64,000 bases of DNA from assembly GCF_000143965.1 (NCBI RefSeq), contig NC_014365.1:1763501-1827500 (forward strand), in the 5' to 3' direction. How positions within the stretch are numbered: position 1 is the stretch's first letter; each line of letters starts with the position of its first letter. The notes beneath the pieces are model-generated. The model worked only from the letters and a program-made list of their open reading frames with translations, did not search any database and was not told the DNA's origin. The position numbers were made by a program, and so were the translations under genes. The stretch is from Desulfarculus baarsii DSM 2075. GTDB lineage: Bacteria; Desulfobacterota; Desulfarculia; Desulfarculales; Desulfarculaceae. Positions 14,366-56,459 of this stretch are shown here, in pieces.

Positions 14366-14450
14366 GTCCGCTCCTTTCCTGTTTGGCTTGGCTCGTCAGG
14401 GGCGGGAAGCCATCTCCGCCCGACCGGCCCGCGTGGAGCCGGTTTCGCCG

Positions 14451-48323: not shown

Positions 48324-48357
48324 GGCCCGTCGGGAGCGAATATCCCGGCGGGCCTTT
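48324..48357 (+). terminator. Terminator of the redox operon
   Basis: GGCCCGTCGGGA pairs with TCCCGGCGGGCC (one G-T pair) around GCGAAT-A and is followed by TTTTGTTT. Confidence 0.9.
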
Positions 48358-48807: not shown

Positions 48808-50949
48808 ATGCGCTGTCACGCAATGCTCAAGGCCGTGGGCAAGGCCTTGATCGCCACCACTCTATTGACCATGGCCTGCGCCACGCCAGCCGCCTGGGCC
48901 GCCGACGAGGCGACCGCCGAGGCCAAGGCCGCCGGCGAGGAAAAACAAGTCCACAAACTCGACCAGATCGTGGTCACCGGCCAACAAGCCGGCCAGCAGG
49001 TGGAGCTGACGCCGGAGGCCTCCACCATCGTGCTCGACGACTACCTGACCATCGACACGCCGCAAAACATCGGCGACTATATGAAGAACCTGATCATGTT
49101 CGATTACCGTGACACCTCCGATCTGGTGCCGGGCTCCGACAGCTTCAACATGCGCGCCTGGGACACCAACCGCTTCACCATGGCCGTCGACGGGGTGGAC
49201 CTGCGCAAGACCGGCGGCCGCAACGCCAACAACAGCGTGGACTACGCCACCTTGCCGCCGTTTTTGGTCGAAAAGATCGAAGTGTTGCCCGGCCCGCACT
49301 GGGCGCTCTATCCGGCCAAGAGCATCGGCGGCGTGGTCAACCTGGTCTCCCGCGCGCCGATGCTCAAGGAAAGCGCCAAGCCCGACGTCAAGTTCAGCGG
49401 TTCGTACAAGTCGTACAACACGCAGAACTACAACCTCTCCGGCCAGGGCAGCGCCGACCAGTTCACCTACGACGTGGGCTTCCAATACTATAAAACCGAC
49501 GGCTATCTGCGCAACAGCGAGGCCGAGATCAGCACGGGCGTGGGCCGCGCGGGCTACGTGATCCCCTCGGGCGGCTACGTCGCCCTGACCGGCTCCTACA
49601 CCGACAACAAGCGCAACGACCCCGTCAACAACGATCCCAACAGCTCCGACTACGACAGCGATTATCCCACCGTGACCAATTCGGCGCGCAACATGAGCCA
49701 GAACCCCACCTGGAACGGCGACAGCAAGCGCCTGCGGTTGGATTATCAACAGCCGTGGGCCATCGGCGATGTCTCGTTGGACGCCTACTATGGCGAGGAA
49801 TATAAAAACCGCGCCTACTACAACAACGGCAAGCTGAGCGAGCTGTTCACCCGCTGGTATCAGACCGGGGCCAAGCTGCAAGACAAGTTCAGCTTTGCGC
49901 CCAATCACGTCACGACCGTGGCCCTGGACGGCCAGCAGGCCTGGGACGGCGGCAAGGACACCGGCGACAAGGACAAGCGCTTGCGCATCCTGGGCATGGC
50001 CGCCCAACACGAGTGGACGATCATCCCCCGCCTCAAGCTGACCCTGGGCCTGCGCTACGAGCACGACACCATCTGGGTCAGCAACAGCTACATCACCACC
50101 GAGGGCGAGTGGATCGAGCGCAACTTCGACGGCCTGATGCCCAAAAGCTTCCTGACCTACCAGATGGACGACCTGGCCCTGTGGCTGCGCGACACCTCCT
50201 TCAGCGTGGGCGTCAGCCGCATCTGGCACGCGCCCGACAGCCACAGCCTCTACAATCCCCAGGGCCGGCCCACCGGCGCCTGGCTGGACCCGGAGCAGGG
50301 CGTGGGCCTGGACGCCATCCTGGAGCGCCGCCTGTTCGGCAACGTCCGCGCCAAGCTCGATTACTTCTACTATGCAATCAACGACTACATCGCCTCCAAC
50401 ACCTCCTACGCCAAATACACCCCCAGCAAATCCAACCCGGTCAAGCCCGGCCAGGAGTGCAAGGACTACTTCATCAACCTGGACCAGATGATCACCCAGG
50501 GCATCGACCTGGAGTTCAGCGGCAACATCACCGAAAAGCTCTCGTTTTATCTGGGTTACGCCTATCTGGACATGGAAAACCAGGGCGACGAGTTGGCCGG
50601 CGTGGACGCGGCCGCCGACCGCGCCAAGCACCGGGTCAAGGCCGGCCTGAGCTACGAGATCATCAAGGGCAGCGCGGTGCTGTTGGACTACCAGTTCCAA
50701 GACAAGCAGGTCAACGAATACTCCGAGGAGATCGCCGAGGACGAGTGGATCGTCAGGAAGGTGTCCATCGACGCCTACAGCCTGGTCAACATCGGCTTCC
50801 GGCAGAGGCTGTTCCAACAGTGGGGGCCGCTGCACGACGCCACGGCCAGGGTGTTCATCGACAATCTCTTTGACGAGGAATACCAGGACGCCAGGGGCTG
50901 GCCGGCCACCGACCGCGTCTATGGCGTTGGCCTGAGCTTCAGCATGTAA
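48808..50949 (+). CDS. TonB-dependent outer-membrane receptor
   Basis: A 713-residue receptor. The signal peptide ends near AAWAAD, a TonB-box-like DQIVVTGQQ follows, then the plug domain (MRAWDTNRFTMAVDGVDLRK, EKIEVLPGPHWALYPAKSIG) and a beta-barrel ending in a strand with a terminal aromatic/hydrophobic pattern (VYGVGLSFSM). It imports a scarce compound using TonB energy. The ligand is unknown; the following genes (exported tetrapyrrole-methylase-like protein, DUF4198) hint at a metal-tetrapyrrole or metal chelate. The ATG is chosen for the GGGGGA site and a normal signal peptide. Confidence 0.9.
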   Translation: MRCHAMLKAVGKALIATTLLTMACATPAAWAADEATAEAKAAGEEKQVHKLDQIVVTGQQAGQQVELTPEASTIVLDDYLTIDTPQNIGDYMKNLIMFDYRDTSDLVPGSDSFNMRAWDTNRFTMAVDGVDLRKTGGRNANNSVDYATLPPFLVEKIEVLPGPHWALYPAKSIGGVVNLVSRAPMLKESAKPDVKFSGSYKSYNTQNYNLSGQGSADQFTYDVGFQYYKTDGYLRNSEAEISTGVGRAGYVIPSGGYVALTGSYTDNKRNDPVNNDPNSSDYDSDYPTVTNSARNMSQNPTWNGDSKRLRLDYQQPWAIGDVSLDAYYGEEYKNRAYYNNGKLSELFTRWYQTGAKLQDKFSFAPNHVTTVALDGQQAWDGGKDTGDKDKRLRILGMAAQHEWTIIPRLKLTLGLRYEHDTIWVSNSYITTEGEWIERNFDGLMPKSFLTYQMDDLALWLRDTSFSVGVSRIWHAPDSHSLYNPQGRPTGAWLDPEQGVGLDAILERRLFGNVRAKLDYFYYAINDYIASNTSYAKYTPSKSNPVKPGQECKDYFINLDQMITQGIDLEFSGNITEKLSFYLGYAYLDMENQGDELAGVDAAADRAKHRVKAGLSYEIIKGSAVLLDYQFQDKQVNEYSEEIAEDEWIVRKVSIDAYSLVNIGFRQRLFQQWGPLHDATARVFIDNLFDEEYQDARGWPATDRVYGVGLSFSM

Positions 50950-51014
50950 CGCAAAGCATGGGCGGCCCGCGTCCGCGGCGACGCGGGTCGCTTTTCACCG
51001 AGGAAGGAACGAAA

Positions 51015-52655
51015 ATGAACGGCAAGGTTAAACAATTGGCCAGAATGCTCGCCTTGGCGGCGGCCCTGTGCCTGAGCGTCGCCGGGCTGGCCCTGGCCGC
51101 CGGGCAGGGCAGTTATCAACTGGTGGGCCTGGGGCCGGGCGCGGCCGATTTGATGACCCCGCGCCAGTTGGCGGCCATCGAGGCGGCCGACATCGTTTTT
51201 TGTGACGACAAAACCAAACAGATGCTCGCGGCCAACGTCGACCTGAGCGGCAAGGAGATCATCGGCGGCTACGGCCTGGCTTTCCCCTATTTCGGCAAGG
51301 ACTGCGCCAAGGTTCCGGCCGAGGCGGGCAAGCGCTGGGGCAAGAGCTGCGAGGAATTCCACAAGCTGCAAGCCGAGTTCGTGGCCATGGTGCAAAAGGC
51401 CGTGGCCCAGGGCAAGAAAGTGGTCATGACCAGCGGCGGCGACCCGACCATCTACGGCCCCGGCGTCTGGACGCTGATCGCCCTGAAAGACTTGCAACCC
51501 ACCGTCGTGCCCGGCCTAAGCGCCCTCAACGCCGGCAACGCCGCCCTCAAGGCCAGCCTGGGCGAGGTGATCATCACCGCGCCCTTTGACAAGCCCGGCC
51601 AAAAAGACAACATCGAAAACATGGCCGGCCAACCAAAGGCCACCATGGTCATCTACATGCCCCGCGACATGGATAAGCTCCTGGCCCGCCTGGCCAAGGC
51701 CTATCCGGCCGACACGCCCGTGGGCGTGGTCGAAAACGCCGGCGGCGCGGAAAAGCAAAAGGTCGCCCTGGGCACGATCGCCGACATCGGCCGGAAACTG
51801 GGCGACATGAAGGCCATGAACTGCCTGGTCTACGTGGGCCAGCCCCTGGCCAAGGCCCAGTTCAACCCGGCCGACACGCCCGGCGCGCAATCCGGCCAGG
51901 GCAAGTATTACCTGGTGGGCATGGGCCCCGGCGACGCCGACCTGGCCACGCTGCGGGCGCTGGAGGTGATCAAAAAGGCCGATCTTATTTTTGTGGGCCG
52001 GGGCATGAAGGAGCGCTTCGCCAAGGAGTTGGCGGGCAAGAACGTGGTGGAGGGCTACTACCGCCTGTTCCCGTTCTATGGCCAGGATTGCAGCAAGATC
52101 CCCGCCGCCGAAAAATCCCGCGAGCGCATGAGCTGCGAGGAGTATCAGCAAAAGCAGGCCGAATTCGCCGCCATGGTCCGCCAGGCCGTGGCCAAGGGCC
52201 AGACCGTGGCCATGCTCGACAGCGGCGACCCGCTGATCTACGGCCCCTGCTCGTGGAGCCTCATCGAACTGCGTGACATCCCCACCGAGGCCGTGCCGGG
52301 TATGAGCTGCTTCAACGCCGCCAACGCCGCCGTGGGCGCGGGGATCACCGAAGGCAAGTCCAGCCATTCGGTGCTGCTGGCCTCGGGCTGGAGCGTGGAG
52401 GAAATGGCCAAGCACCAGGCGGCCATGGTCCTGTTCACCATGCGCACCGAGTTCAAGAAATTCGTCGACGCCCTGCTCAAGTCCTACCCGCCCGAGACGC
52501 CGGTGGCCATCGTCTTCAGCGCCGGCTACGCCAAGGAAGAACATGTCCTGCGCGGCGCGCTGGGCGGCGTGCTCCAGCAGGTCGAGGGCCAGAAGCTGCC
52601 CTTTGAGCATCTGCTCTACGTGGGCGATTTTCTGACCAACGATAGTCCGTACTAA
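51015..52655 (+). CDS. Exported tandem tetrapyrrole-methylase-domain protein
   Basis: A 546-residue protein with a clear signal peptide (MLALAAALCLSVAGLALA) and two complete tetrapyrrole-methylase (CbiF/CobA-type) domains. Domain 1 has YQLVGLGPGAADL, MTSGGDPTIYGPG and VPGLSALNAGNAA; domain 2, from about residue 298, has YYLVGMGPGDADL, LDSGDPLIYGP and VPGMSCFNAANAA. These are the family's glycine-rich SAM loop and GDPxIYG motif. Each half carries the same insert with cysteines (DCAKVPA ... SCEE and DCSKIPA ... SCEE). A periplasmic location has no known SAM supply, so a binding role may have replaced catalysis. It follows the TonB receptor by 65 bases. Confidence 0.85.
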   Translation: MNGKVKQLARMLALAAALCLSVAGLALAAGQGSYQLVGLGPGAADLMTPRQLAAIEAADIVFCDDKTKQMLAANVDLSGKEIIGGYGLAFPYFGKDCAKVPAEAGKRWGKSCEEFHKLQAEFVAMVQKAVAQGKKVVMTSGGDPTIYGPGVWTLIALKDLQPTVVPGLSALNAGNAALKASLGEVIITAPFDKPGQKDNIENMAGQPKATMVIYMPRDMDKLLARLAKAYPADTPVGVVENAGGAEKQKVALGTIADIGRKLGDMKAMNCLVYVGQPLAKAQFNPADTPGAQSGQGKYYLVGMGPGDADLATLRALEVIKKADLIFVGRGMKERFAKELAGKNVVEGYYRLFPFYGQDCSKIPAAEKSRERMSCEEYQQKQAEFAAMVRQAVAKGQTVAMLDSGDPLIYGPCSWSLIELRDIPTEAVPGMSCFNAANAAVGAGITEGKSSHSVLLASGWSVEEMAKHQAAMVLFTMRTEFKKFVDALLKSYPPETPVAIVFSAGYAKEEHVLRGALGGVLQQVEGQKLPFEHLLYVGDFLTNDSPY

Positions 52656-52698: not shown

Positions 52699-53571
52699 AT
52701 GGACGAAATGAAAAAATCGCTGATCATGACGGCCCTGTTGGGCGCGAGCCTGCTGCTTTGCGCGCCCCTGGCCCTGGCCCACGACCTGTGGCTCAACCCC
52801 GATAACGCCCGGCCCAACGTTGGTGATGCGGTCAAAGTCGACATCGGCTTTGGCCACGGTTACCCGGCCGACCGGGCCGGCGAGCCGCTCAAGGAAGGCA
52901 TGCAGATCGACGTGACGGCGGTGGGCCCCGACGGCCAGGCCGTGGCCGTGCAAAGCCCGTCGGCCGGCTCGCGCCAGCTCACCGTCGACAAGCCCGGCGC
53001 CTACATGGTCCAGGCCCAGACGAAGCCCGGCTTTTTCTGCCGCACCAAGGACGGCATGAGGCGTGGCGACAAAAAGCAAAACCCCGGGGCGACCAAGTGC
53101 ATGTCGTTCACCATGTGCGCCAACGCGCCCCTGGTGGCCGGCCCCGGCGGCGGGGAATTCGTGATGGCGGCCGATCAGGCCTTGCAGATCCAGCCCTTGG
53201 CCGACTTGGCCACCGTGAAAAAGGGCGACGCCCTGCCGGTGCGCGTGCTTTTCGAGGGCAAGCCCCTGGCCGAGGCCAAGGTGGTTGCCACCTACGCCGG
53301 CTACAAGCCCCAGCCGCCGGCCGGCGCGGCCGCGCCGCCCAAGGACAATAAGCCCCTGTCGCGCCGCGAGGCCGCCCGCCAGAAGGCCATGCAAAAGACG
53401 GCCGTGCACTTCCCGGTGGAGGTCAAAACCGACGCCCAGGGCCAGGCCACGCTCAAGCTGGACCAGGCCGGTTGGTGGCTGGTGCTGGTCGGCCACGCCA
53501 CGCCCTACGCCGATCCGTCGGTCTGCGACGAAAACATGTACAAGACCAGCTTCACCTTCAACGTGAACTAG
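52699..53571 (+). CDS. DUF4198 periplasmic protein
   Basis: A 290-residue exported protein whose mature part begins HDLWLNPDNARPNVGDAVKV, the DUF4198 start with an N-terminal histidine just after the signal peptide. An Ig-like C-terminal domain ends GWWLVLVGHATPY. DUF4198 proteins often accompany nickel/cobalt or siderophore uptake, the N-terminal His being a possible metal ligand. A cysteine-bearing loop (GFFCRTKDG ... TKCMSFTMCANA) is unusual. It follows the tandem methylase gene by 43 bases. Starts at 52699 and 52708 are both possible. Confidence 0.8.
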   Translation: MDEMKKSLIMTALLGASLLLCAPLALAHDLWLNPDNARPNVGDAVKVDIGFGHGYPADRAGEPLKEGMQIDVTAVGPDGQAVAVQSPSAGSRQLTVDKPGAYMVQAQTKPGFFCRTKDGMRRGDKKQNPGATKCMSFTMCANAPLVAGPGGGEFVMAADQALQIQPLADLATVKKGDALPVRVLFEGKPLAEAKVVATYAGYKPQPPAGAAAPPKDNKPLSRREAARQKAMQKTAVHFPVEVKTDAQGQATLKLDQAGWWLVLVGHATPYADPSVCDENMYKTSFTFNVN

Positions 53572-53596: not shown

Positions 53597-54979
53597 ATGA
53601 GCGACAAGTGCAATGGCCTGGAAAGGGCGCTGCGTCCGCTGGACGCGGTGATGATCGTGGTGGGCAACGTGGTTGGCGTGGGTATTTTCACCACCACCGG
53701 TTTTATCGCCGGGGACATTGCCGATGCTTGGTTGATCATGGCCGTCTGGCTGCTGGGCGGGGCGTTGACCCTTTTGGGAGCCCTTTCCTACGGCGAATTG
53801 GGCGCGGCGTTCCCCCGGGCCGGCGGCGATTACGTCTATCTGCGCGAGGCCTACGGCCCCTTGGCCGGCTTTCTGGTGGGCTGGGTGGGCTTTTTCATCA
53901 TCAACCCCGGCTCCATCGCCGCCCTGGCCCTGGGCTTGGCGGAGTATCTGCTACCGCTGGCGGCGGGGCCGGCAGAATATCCGGTGGCCAAAAAAGTCGT
54001 GGCCCTGGCGGTGATCGTGCTGTTTTCGGCGCTGAACTATTTCAGCGTGCGCTGGGCCTGCCGGGTGCAAAACGCGGTCAGCGGCCTGGGACTGCTTACG
54101 ATCATCGTGGTGGCGGCGGCCGGCTTCATCTGGGGCCGGGGCGACTGGGCCAACTTCGACTTCCACGGGCCCAGCGCCTCGCTGGCCGATCTGTTCGGGC
54201 CGGCCATGGTCTCGGTGTTTTTCACCTACAGCGGTTGGTTTGTCTCGGCCTACGTGGCCGGAGAGCTGAAGGAGCCACAAAAATCATTGCCCATATCGCT
54301 GATCATCAGCAGCCTTTTGGTCATGGCGCTTTATGTGCTGATGAACGCCCTCTACATCTACGCCTTGCCGGTGCCCGGCATGGCCGGCGTGGTCGATATC
54401 GCTCGCCAGGCCTGCCTGGCCCTGTTCGGCGGGCCTTGGGCGGCCAACCTGGTCTCGCTGATGATCATCGTGGCCATTCTGGGCAGCCTCAATTCGGTGG
54501 TGCTGACTGCGCCGCGCATCTACTACGCCATGGCCAGCGACGAAGTTTTCCCCGCTCGCCTGGCCAGGGTGCATCCCCGCTTCAGGACACCCCATTGGGC
54601 CATCGGCGCGCAGACGGTTTTGTCATGCCTGCTGGTGCTGGTGGGCAATTTTTATCAGCTTTTGTCCTACACCGTTTTTTTCATGCTGCTGACCTCGACG
54701 GCCACGGCCTTGGGCGTGTTCGTGCTGCGCCGGCGCAAGCCGGATCTGACCCGGCCCTATAAGGTCTGGGGCTATCCTTACACCACGTTGGCCTTTGTGG
54801 CCGCCTACGCCTGGATCGCCGCGCGCATCTTTTGGCACAACCCCTGGGACGCGGCCATGGGCCTGTTGATCACCCTTTCGGGCGTGCCGTTTTATCTGTG
54901 GTGGAGCCGTCGCGACGTGGAGAGTCAGGAAACGGCCATGGGCCTGGAGGCCGAGCGGGGCCAGGAAAGCCGGCCCTGA
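53597..54979 (+). CDS. APC-superfamily amino acid permease
   Basis: A 460-residue permease with about twelve membrane segments. The conserved first helix is VIVVGNVVGVGIFTTTGFIA, where the GxG loop binds the amino-acid backbone, and a later stretch ELGAAFPRAGGDYVYLREAY matches the LAT/APC family. The substrate cannot be named. It lies 26 bases after the DUF4198 gene and may belong to the same transcript as the receptor locus. Confidence 0.9.
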   Translation: MSDKCNGLERALRPLDAVMIVVGNVVGVGIFTTTGFIAGDIADAWLIMAVWLLGGALTLLGALSYGELGAAFPRAGGDYVYLREAYGPLAGFLVGWVGFFIINPGSIAALALGLAEYLLPLAAGPAEYPVAKKVVALAVIVLFSALNYFSVRWACRVQNAVSGLGLLTIIVVAAAGFIWGRGDWANFDFHGPSASLADLFGPAMVSVFFTYSGWFVSAYVAGELKEPQKSLPISLIISSLLVMALYVLMNALYIYALPVPGMAGVVDIARQACLALFGGPWAANLVSLMIIVAILGSLNSVVLTAPRIYYAMASDEVFPARLARVHPRFRTPHWAIGAQTVLSCLLVLVGNFYQLLSYTVFFMLLTSTATALGVFVLRRRKPDLTRPYKVWGYPYTTLAFVAAYAWIAARIFWHNPWDAAMGLLITLSGVPFYLWWSRRDVESQETAMGLEAERGQESRP

Positions 54980-55071: not shown

Positions 55072-55404
55072 TTACGGACGGGCGGCCTTTGGCAGCAATT
55101 CGGCGGGAAAGGCGCCTTCGGCGATCTCGTGCAGCCACCACCACCAGGCCTCCTTGGGCGGCTGATCGCGCTCGCGGATGGAGGCAACACTGTCAACGCG
55201 CCAAAACTCGGCAACCTTGTCGGCGGCGTCAATCAGCACGGCGTCGGATGCGGCCACCAGGGCGCGCTCCTCGGCGGTCAATTCATCCCAAACATCGGCG
55301 ATTCCTTGGCGAAAATAGGCCATACGACTTACCGTTTCCGGCACGATCAGGCCATCATCAAGCTCAGGCAACAAGCAGCTAGTGTAGACATCCACTTCTC
55401 GCAT
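55072..55404 (-). CDS. Small protein of unknown function, paralogue A
   Basis: A 110-residue acidic, helical protein. Its C-terminus is WWWWLHEIAEGAFPAELLPK, preceded by QPPKEA; the middle contains LTAEERALVAASDAVL. The next gene upstream encodes a paralogue with the same ending. An AGGTGG site precedes the ATG. It converges on the permease gene. I do not recognise the family; the repeated tryptophans suggest a binding surface or membrane contact. Confidence 0.65.
   Translation of the reverse strand: MREVDVYTSCLLPELDDGLIVPETVSRMAYFRQGIADVWDELTAEERALVAASDAVLIDAADKVAEFWRVDSVASIRERDQPPKEAWWWWLHEIAEGAFPAELLPKAARP
55081..55164. repeat. 84-bp direct repeat, copy in paralogue A
   Basis: Identical to 55443-55526 except for one base (G for A). 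It encodes the C-terminal end of the paralogue. Such near-identity next to diverged flanks suggests a recent duplication or gene conversion. Confidence 0.85.
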
Positions 55405-55433: not shown

Positions 55434-55778
55434 TTACGGCCGGGCGGCCTTTGGCAGCAATTCGGCGGGAAAGGCGCCTTCGGCGATCTCGTGCAGCCAC
55501 CACCACCAGACCTCCTTGGGCGGCTGGTATTTTTCGCGGTTGCGCTTGATGTCGTCTGTGCGCCAGTACACGGCCACCATATCGGCCGCCGCGATCAGCG
55601 CCAGATCGGCCTGGGCCACCAGGGCGCGCTCCTCGGCGGTCAACACATGCCAGACTTCGTGCAGTTCTTGGCGGCGATAGGCCCGGCGGCTGATCGTCTC
55701 CGGGGCCAACATGGTCTCGTCCAGCTCCGGCAATAGGCCGTCGGCGTAATCAACCACATCTTGTCTCATTTTGCCCAT
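55434..55778 (-). CDS. Small protein of unknown function, paralogue B
   Basis: A 114-residue protein closely related to the downstream gene. Both share LLPELDE/D near the start, PETxSRxAY, the LTAEERALVA core, and an identical last 21 residues apart from no change in WWWWLHEIAEGAFP. Gap to the paralogue is 29 bases, so the two form an operon. The N-terminal halves have diverged more than the ends. Function unknown. Confidence 0.65.
   Translation of the reverse strand: MGKMRQDVVDYADGLLPELDETMLAPETISRRAYRRQELHEVWHVLTAEERALVAQADLALIAAADMVAVYWRTDDIKRNREKYQPPKEVWWWWLHEIAEGAFPAELLPKAARP
55443..55526. repeat. 84-bp direct repeat, copy in paralogue B
   Basis: The second copy of the same sequence, encoding the C-terminal end of paralogue B. 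A further shared block of about 26 bases lies upstream in both genes, in the part encoding LTAEERALV. Confidence 0.85.
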
Positions 55779-55850: not shown

Positions 55851-56459
55851 TCAGATCAGCAGGCTGCCCAGGGCCTGCGAGCGCACCTGGCGCAGATAGG
55901 CCACCACCAGCGCGGTGAACACGCCCTCGATGGCCGCCACCGGCAGATGGGCCACCAGCAGGGCCTGGGCCGTGGAGATGAAGCTGTCGCCGCTGAGGTA
56001 GAGCGACAGGGCGGTCATGGCCGCGGTGAGCATCACCGACAGGGCCCCGGCCGAAAAGCCCGAAAGCATGCAAACCAGGCGCGAGCCGCCGCGCACCGGC
56101 CGGGCCAGCAGATAATGGCAAAATATGGCCGGCAGGGCCACGTTGAGCGTGTTGACGCCCAAAACGGTCAGGCCGCCGAATTGAAACAGGATCGCTTGCA
56201 GGGTCAGCGCCACCAGGATGGCCGGGAAAGCCGCCCAGCCCAGCATGATTCCCACCAGGCCGTTGAGCAGCAAATGCACGCTGGATGGCCCCACCGGCAC
56301 GTGCACCAGGCTGGCCACGAAAAACGCCGCCGCCAACAGCCCCGTGCGCGGCAGGTTTTCCACGTTGATCTTGCGCAGGCCCCAGGCCGTGCCGCCCGCG
56401 CTCAGCGCGGCCCCGGCGGCCAGGACCGGCCCCGAAAGCACTCCGTCGGCGATATGCAT
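55851..56459 (-). CDS. cbiM: Cobalt/nickel transport protein CbiM
   Basis: A 202-residue membrane protein beginning MHIADGVLSG. The second-position histidine and following aspartate are the metal-binding N-terminus of CbiM/NikM. Several membrane segments follow, with HVPVGPSSVHLLLNGLVGIM as the second metal-binding region. CbiM is the substrate-binding core of an ECF cobalt or nickel importer; the partner genes cbiN, cbiQ and cbiO are not in this window. It starts 37 bases after the efflux operon's last gene on the same strand and may be cotranscribed. Confidence 0.92.
   Translation of the reverse strand: MHIADGVLSGPVLAAGAALSAGGTAWGLRKINVENLPRTGLLAAAFFVASLVHVPVGPSSVHLLLNGLVGIMLGWAAFPAILVALTLQAILFQFGGLTVLGVNTLNVALPAIFCHYLLARPVRGGSRLVCMLSGFSAGALSVMLTAAMTALSLYLSGDSFISTAQALLVAHLPVAAIEGVFTALVVAYLRQVRSQALGSLLI

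Follow-up and report, generated by a model that had tools for sequence, protein, structure and literature searches.

What does a protein built on the fold of a cytoplasmic methylase do outside the cytoplasm, next to a TonB-dependent receptor? The question arises from a single gene of Desulfarculus baarsii DSM 2075, found in a 64,000-nucleotide stretch of its genome that was analysed as a whole (the window). The gene appears to belong to a widespread and previously undescribed outer-membrane uptake operon that probably serves nickel acquisition.

An exported protein with two methylase domains

The gene lies at 51015 to 52655 on the forward strand and encodes 546 residues, which the Pfam family TP_methylase (PF00590) matches twice (263.5 bits, E 2e-78). 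The sequence GAGGAAGG stands 7 bases 5' of the ATG at 51015, and the alternative in-frame start at 50958, which would lengthen the protein, has no similar site before it. A Sec-type signal peptide lacking the twin-arginine motif opens the protein (MNGKVKQLARMLALAAALCLSVAGLALA|A; residues 1 to 28, cleavage at ALA|A; 51015 to 51098, forward strand), recognised from the sequence and from our own rule-based scan of the homologues. Profile matches, alignment and a structural model place a first tetrapyrrole-methylase (TPM) domain at residues 32 to 280 (51108 to 51854) and a second at residues 295 to 541 (51897 to 52637), both on the forward strand. Each half has a GxGPG loop (GLGPG and GMGPG) and a GDPxIYG motif, which bears out the first-pass annotation in its claim of a strong signal peptide followed by two full copies of the fold.

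Fold prediction, which that annotation had proposed as a check, gave the same picture. The AlphaFold (AF2) model, computed from 18 double-domain sequences, reached pLDDT 87.6 and pTM 0.86, and both halves resemble B12 methylases: the C half matches CbiF (3ndc; Z 17.8, 2.4 Å over 222 residues) and the N half CbiL (8xj3; Z 17.2, 3.6 Å over 224 residues), in a search to which further solved folds may answer too. Double proteins carry conserved cysteine pairs in the alignment, C97/C112 in domain 1 and C359/C374 in domain 2, which are perhaps disulfides or metal ligands.

By the scan, nearly every close homologue starts at the same place and has a signal peptide, and many of those from Desulfobacterales have a lipobox (WVFGVGC, FVIGC and VLAAGC, for example). 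As a prediction from sequence, export from the cytoplasm is confirmed by these homologues, some of which would be lipoproteins, and this is not the cytoplasmic location expected of a B12 or siroheme methylase.

How far does the likeness to such enzymes go? The protein shares with CbiF/CobM, CobA/CysG and CbiL the fold, the GxGPG loop, the GDPxIYG motif and the SAM-contact positions, and its closest models are those of CbiF and CobA. It differs from them in being exported, in lying in a TonB operon, in lacking the catalytic residues of SUMT and in falling below every NCBIfam B12 equivalog cut-off (the best, cobM_cbiF, gave 180.7 against 259.65 bits). At CysG P225, G302, D303, I306, T331/A332 and G411, annotated in CysG as SAM contacts, the window halves have P, G, D, I, S, A/C and G; CysG M382 aligned ambiguously. 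With E. coli CysG as the reference, G302, D303, I306 (as I, L or V), T331 (as Ser) and G411 are retained throughout the exported groups and in nearly all of the 95 exported domains, and P225 is kept in the double proteins and not in most single ones. Across the exported domains these columns are more conserved than the others (MWU p 4e-4). D248, K270 and R298, the catalytic and proton-transfer residues of uroporphyrinogen methylation in SUMT, are not kept: the two halves have D/G, Y/Y and M/M there, at positions that are not required outside SUMT and whose residues other B12 methylases lack as well. The exported proteins have a signature of their own, GDPxIYGPxxW, PGxSxFNAxNA and FTMR, that sets them apart from B12 methylases.

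Two known B12-type enzymes of the periplasm, CbiK-P of Desulfovibrio and IhtB of Porphyromonas, also lie beside uptake genes and serve as precedents. There too the fold of a tetrapyrrole-synthesis enzyme occurs outside the cytoplasm next to TonB uptake genes, but these proteins are chelatases, not methylases, and have no DUF4198/APC operon.

The operon and its conserved partners

In the window the TPM gene is second of four on the forward strand, separated by gaps of 65, 43 and 25 bases. It follows a TonB-dependent receptor (48808 to 50949; PF00593 and PF07715, NCBIfam NF049945), whose start was taken at the ATG at 48808 in a frame open from 48739, and precedes a DUF4198 protein (52699 to 53571; PF10670, 141.5 bits). 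Both neighbours had been named in the first-pass annotation; the operon further includes a LAT-like amino-acid permease of the APC type (53597 to 54979; PF13520), which has LAT1 and xCT among its closest solved relatives. A strong terminator-like stem of the intrinsic type lies 5' of the operon (48324 to 48354, forward strand; consensus scan, 12 pairs, 10 GC). The four genes share one strand, but the consensus scan found no sigma-70-like site for the single promoter suggested earlier, so common transcription is what we infer. Convergent to the operon lies a lone CbiM-type cobalt/nickel transporter (55851 to 56459, reverse strand; NF004905, 264.8 bits, over cut-off), a gene that some relatives (L116, L108) have inside the TPM operon itself. 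Between the two stand a pair of paralogous reverse-strand open reading frames of about 110 residues that belong to no family (55072 to 55404 and 55434 to 55778).

Are these neighbours more than a local accident? Searching 394 genomes from the phylum and 85,000 species genomes (79 loci) with profiles yielded about 90 TPM homologue genes in Desulfobacterota, Thermodesulfobacteria, Planctomycetota, Pseudomonadota (Chromatiales, Thauera), Aliarcobacter and others; the loci for counting gene links were picked by sequence only. A TonB receptor lies at most four genes away on the same strand for 60 of 75 exported TPM genes, against 3 of the 15 homologues in which no signal peptide was recognised. For the APC permease the counts are 43 of 75 and none of 15, and Fisher tests give p of about 2e-5 for either link, values that are not independent because of shared ancestry. 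The group of 15 includes one fragment cut by a contig end, as well as the Janthinobacterium and Duganella proteins (L159, L161), whose scan-called signal peptides were judged false.

The receptor is the immediate upstream gene in 48 cases. D. baarsii itself has 19 TonB receptors in 3.66 Mb, and two of them directly precede its two exported TPM genes, the second of which encodes a single-domain protein (G000:C1:540823-541557). Where the permease gene follows directly 3' of the TPM gene (n=23), the two overlap in 17 cases, which come from distant phyla, and in 11 of these the overlap is exactly 4 bases. No other observation hints as strongly that both products act together. All or some of the order TonB receptor, TPM, DUF4198, APC, small DUF4198/CarboxypepD_reg protein and CbiM is found again in genomes ranging from Desulfobacterota to Thermodesulfobacteria. 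Receptor, TPM and APC alone form the set in Chromatiales, Thauera and Aliarcobacter, and the planctomycete operon consists of DUF1559, TPM and DUF4198, with no receptor or permease nearby. An uptake or scavenging operon, as first guessed from one locus, is well supported across phyla by the co-occurrence of exported TP_methylase proteins with TonB receptors and DUF4198. A putative exported inosine-uridine nucleoside hydrolase fused to FmdE is also encoded within TPM operons (L122 8888-10387; also L085).

Putative selenocysteine receptors

TonB receptors with selenocysteine, of the PCPU and FCYXU types, are known from NCBIfam, from the deep-Sep study (PMC12013277) and from a review (PMC13188914). 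The receptors beside exported TPM proteins belong to these families, and in many of them a TGA interrupts the frame at a constant position, either PCP*DYYWW (the PCPU site) or CEV*/CMP* (the CxxU site). From sequence, this TGA is consistent with selenocysteine. It occurs in the receptors of L059, L066, L067, L071, L085, L086, L101, L105, L116, L121, L122, L126, L130 and L138. The window receptor departs from this pattern: it scores 710 bits with NF049945 (FCYXU type), below the cut-off of 825, and has HAPDSHSLYNPQ at the FCxxU/C site, with neither Cys nor Sec there. Judged by its sequence it is a divergent FCYXU-type receptor, outside NF049945 by both score and motif. Functionally unassigned selenoprotein receptors are now tied to exported TPM proteins.

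Architectures and phylogeny

Exported TPM proteins come as single-domain and tandem forms and as fusions, with DUF4198 in one genome (L059/L126) and with an Oxidored_molyb-like N-terminal domain that Pfam shows for L072, L088 and L163. That N-terminal domain was noted in L072, L084, L088, L089, L163 and L166, some of them near ModABC, ModE or TupA-like genes, and these loci are perhaps a molybdenum or tungsten branch.

The tree separates the exported family from CysG and most B12-type methylases of the same genome, although its deep order is unsure because of the long branches of the B12 rows. In the double proteins, N halves and C halves make up two sister groups of 18 (support 92/97), a pattern that fits one duplication and fusion, and next to them branch the planctomycete single-domain proteins as their sister clade (85/86). 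Dethiosulfatarculus has a double protein (L118) that branches elsewhere and was probably doubled independently. Members without signal peptide sit within the exported group, so they are probably secondary. In three of them, of Marinobacter/Halomonas type (L154, L155, L160), 8 bases are common to the TPM gene and the gene of an MFS transporter. A TGA in the TPM match of L019 was considered for selenocysteine and is an ordinary stop.

Evidence for nickel

What would such an operon take up? DUF4198 is a secreted nickel-binding family in which one homologue binds Ni2+ through its N-terminal histidine with a Kd of 18 nM and has TonB and NikR genes among its neighbours (PMC12537917). After cleavage, the window DUF4198 would begin with HDLWLNP (His codon 52780-52782); it has GFGH as a second histidine motif. 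Most TPM-linked DUF4198s share this pattern, and a signal peptide|H..W junction is present in 26 of 33 open frames, split ones included. Selenocysteine was considered for the split DUF4198 genes of L098 and L103, which have frame changes instead. A TonB receptor together with a secreted DUF4198 bearing a predicted N-terminal histidine, as in the nickel system, is found in the window, with metal binding known from another DUF4198 (PMC12537917).

NikK and NikL have been proposed as extra periplasmic parts of nickel transporters (PMC545781), and the NikK of solved structure matches the window DUF4198 weakly (E 0.3). TPM operons share with TonB-dependent nickel uptake (DUF4198/NikK, NikL, CbiM/NikM) the receptor, the secreted DUF4198 with its predicted N-terminal histidine, a NikL-like small protein and CbiM, but include two further parts, the exported protein of methylase fold and the APC permease.

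Upstream sequences of the sister clade also point to nickel. A perfect palindrome, GTRTTAC-N13-GTAAYAC, which is the NikR type listed for delta-proteobacteria (PMC545781), stands just upstream of the planctomycete TPM operons of L109, L112 and L119, and L110 has a one-mismatch form of reverse type. In the genomes of L109, L112 and L119 (10.7, 3.5 and 5.4 Mb) the palindrome occurs once each, at the TPM operon, and the backwards control pattern has no match. NikR is present in 4 of 7 planctomycete genomes of this kind; one of the three site-bearing genomes, a MAG, shows no NikR gene. Over all loci NikR-type sites are in no general excess and at two mismatches are about as frequent as in shuffled sequence, so that only the planctomycete ones stand out; no other palindrome shared upstream across loci was convincing.

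A proposed periplasmic step in nickel uptake

With these observations in hand, we lean towards reading the double TPM protein as the component that works in the periplasm for a TonB-dependent uptake system, whose cargo is most likely a nickel complex, and not as an enzyme of B12 synthesis. The receptor would carry the nickel complex across the outer membrane, and the double protein would take it into the cleft in which its cytoplasmic relatives hold tetrapyrroles. Nickel would then pass to the N-terminal-histidine site of DUF4198 and on to an inner-membrane transporter of the CbiM/NikM type, and the APC permease would move an amino-acid-like molecule belonging to the same step. The metal, the ligand and the order of steps are our inference, and within the nickel explanation handling without methylation and true methylation stand about level.

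Several observations speak against this reading. In Caulobacter it is iron to which DUF4198 proteins respond (PMC3751524), and CbiM models are named for cobalt. The window genome has no NikR, and no NikR-type site was found in the window locus or upstream of other Desulfobacterota operons, so nickel there rests on DUF4198 and kinship. The molybdopterin-type fusions near ModABC, ModE or TupA-like genes mean that other branches may serve molybdenum or tungsten. On the same side stand the 15 of 75 exported TPM genes with no receptor within four genes, and the planctomycete operons without receptor or permease.

Could the protein instead be an active methylase? A periplasmic SAM-dependent enzyme, to which the LAT-like permease supplies SAM (SAM out, SAH in), is the alternative that survives best, though we think it unlikely. 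By methylating the chelate that comes in, the enzyme would either free the metal or fix it, which is compatible with a nickel system. The retained SAM-contact positions argue for it, as do the frequent presence of the permease near exported proteins alone and the overlap of the two genes. LAT-type carriers are exchangers of large amino acids, and the permease belongs to this exchanger type; the nucleoside hydrolase-FmdE protein of two operons could remove SAH. On the other side, to our knowledge no bacterial APC-family SAM/SAH carrier with such a role and no periplasmic SAM supply are known, and a literature search found no such carrier. That D248, K270 and R298 are not kept also counts against methylation, if less so given the other B12 methylases without them; the conserved motifs could be structural, and simple ligand import by the permease fits the same gene links. 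The full chain, in which the enzyme would methylate a nickel complex delivered by a (seleno)TonB receptor and the coupled permease would supply the periplasm by exchanging SAM for SAH, is more doubtful still.

We likewise consider it doubtful that the system imports a different metal (Mo/W, Co, Fe, Cu), or SAM-like or amino-acid compounds themselves, with nickel confined to some branches. In its favour are the Oxidored_molyb-TPM fusions and the FmdE, TupA-like and ModE/ModABC neighbours of some loci, the cobalt label of CbiM, and the Sec/Cys motifs of many receptors, which suggest a soft metal. The Mo/W links, however, fall in branches of the tree apart from the double clade of the window protein, a clade usually accompanied by DUF4198.

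The ligand first proposed for this locus was a corrinoid, heme or another natural tetrapyrrole, scavenged with the TPM protein as its periplasmic binder. The fold of the family does bind tetrapyrroles, CbiK-P and IhtB are precedents, and models of heme and B12 receptors give the window receptor weak scores. But no cobalamin or other metal riboswitch was found in the window or in eight related loci, BtuCDF-like ABC genes are absent from the conserved gene set, and an APC permease would be an odd tetrapyrrole carrier. With DUF4198 chemistry and the NikR-type sites of the sister clade favouring nickel, this ligand has become improbable, and heme or corrinoid uptake is less likely than nickel handling.

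An ordinary cytoplasmic B12 methylase with a mis-called start is refuted by the sequence and can be set aside: Pfam and NCBIfam do name the domain a B12 methylase, and distant Gamma- and Betaproteobacterial homologues (Marinobacter, Halomonas and Vibrio among them) have no signal peptide, but these are the only exceptions to a search that turned up neither a downstream start nor cytoplasmic, active B12 methylases among the homologues, nearly all close relatives have a signal peptide or lipobox, no B12 equivalog cut-off is reached, and the genome has other TP methylases elsewhere, outside this operon, which is not a B12 operon.

Place among known systems

Four elements of the system have been described before: the methylase fold, this type of receptor, DUF4198 and uptake of nickel. 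Searches of open-access literature turned up no account of an exported methylase and a permease belonging to such a system, and no paper on an exported TP methylase in an operon of this kind; the searched papers on TonB-dependent nickel uptake mention neither the methylase-fold protein nor the permease. A likely role is thereby offered for widespread exported proteins to which an automatic pipeline would give the name B12 methylase, and these are linked with both the selenocysteine TonB receptors and the nickel-binding DUF4198 family. Whether and how an enzyme of this fold works away from the cytoplasmic SAM supply is the question it poses, and the system is a concrete test case for SAM chemistry in the bacterial periplasm.

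Two RNA features were noted along the way. Several Acido-Lenti-1 RNA matches, possibly a repeat, surround the TPM genes of Desulfonema magnum (L105 1855-13171), and the window contains a Type II hammerhead ribozyme at 14381-14450 on the reverse strand (44.1 bits, against an Rfam gathering threshold of 37).
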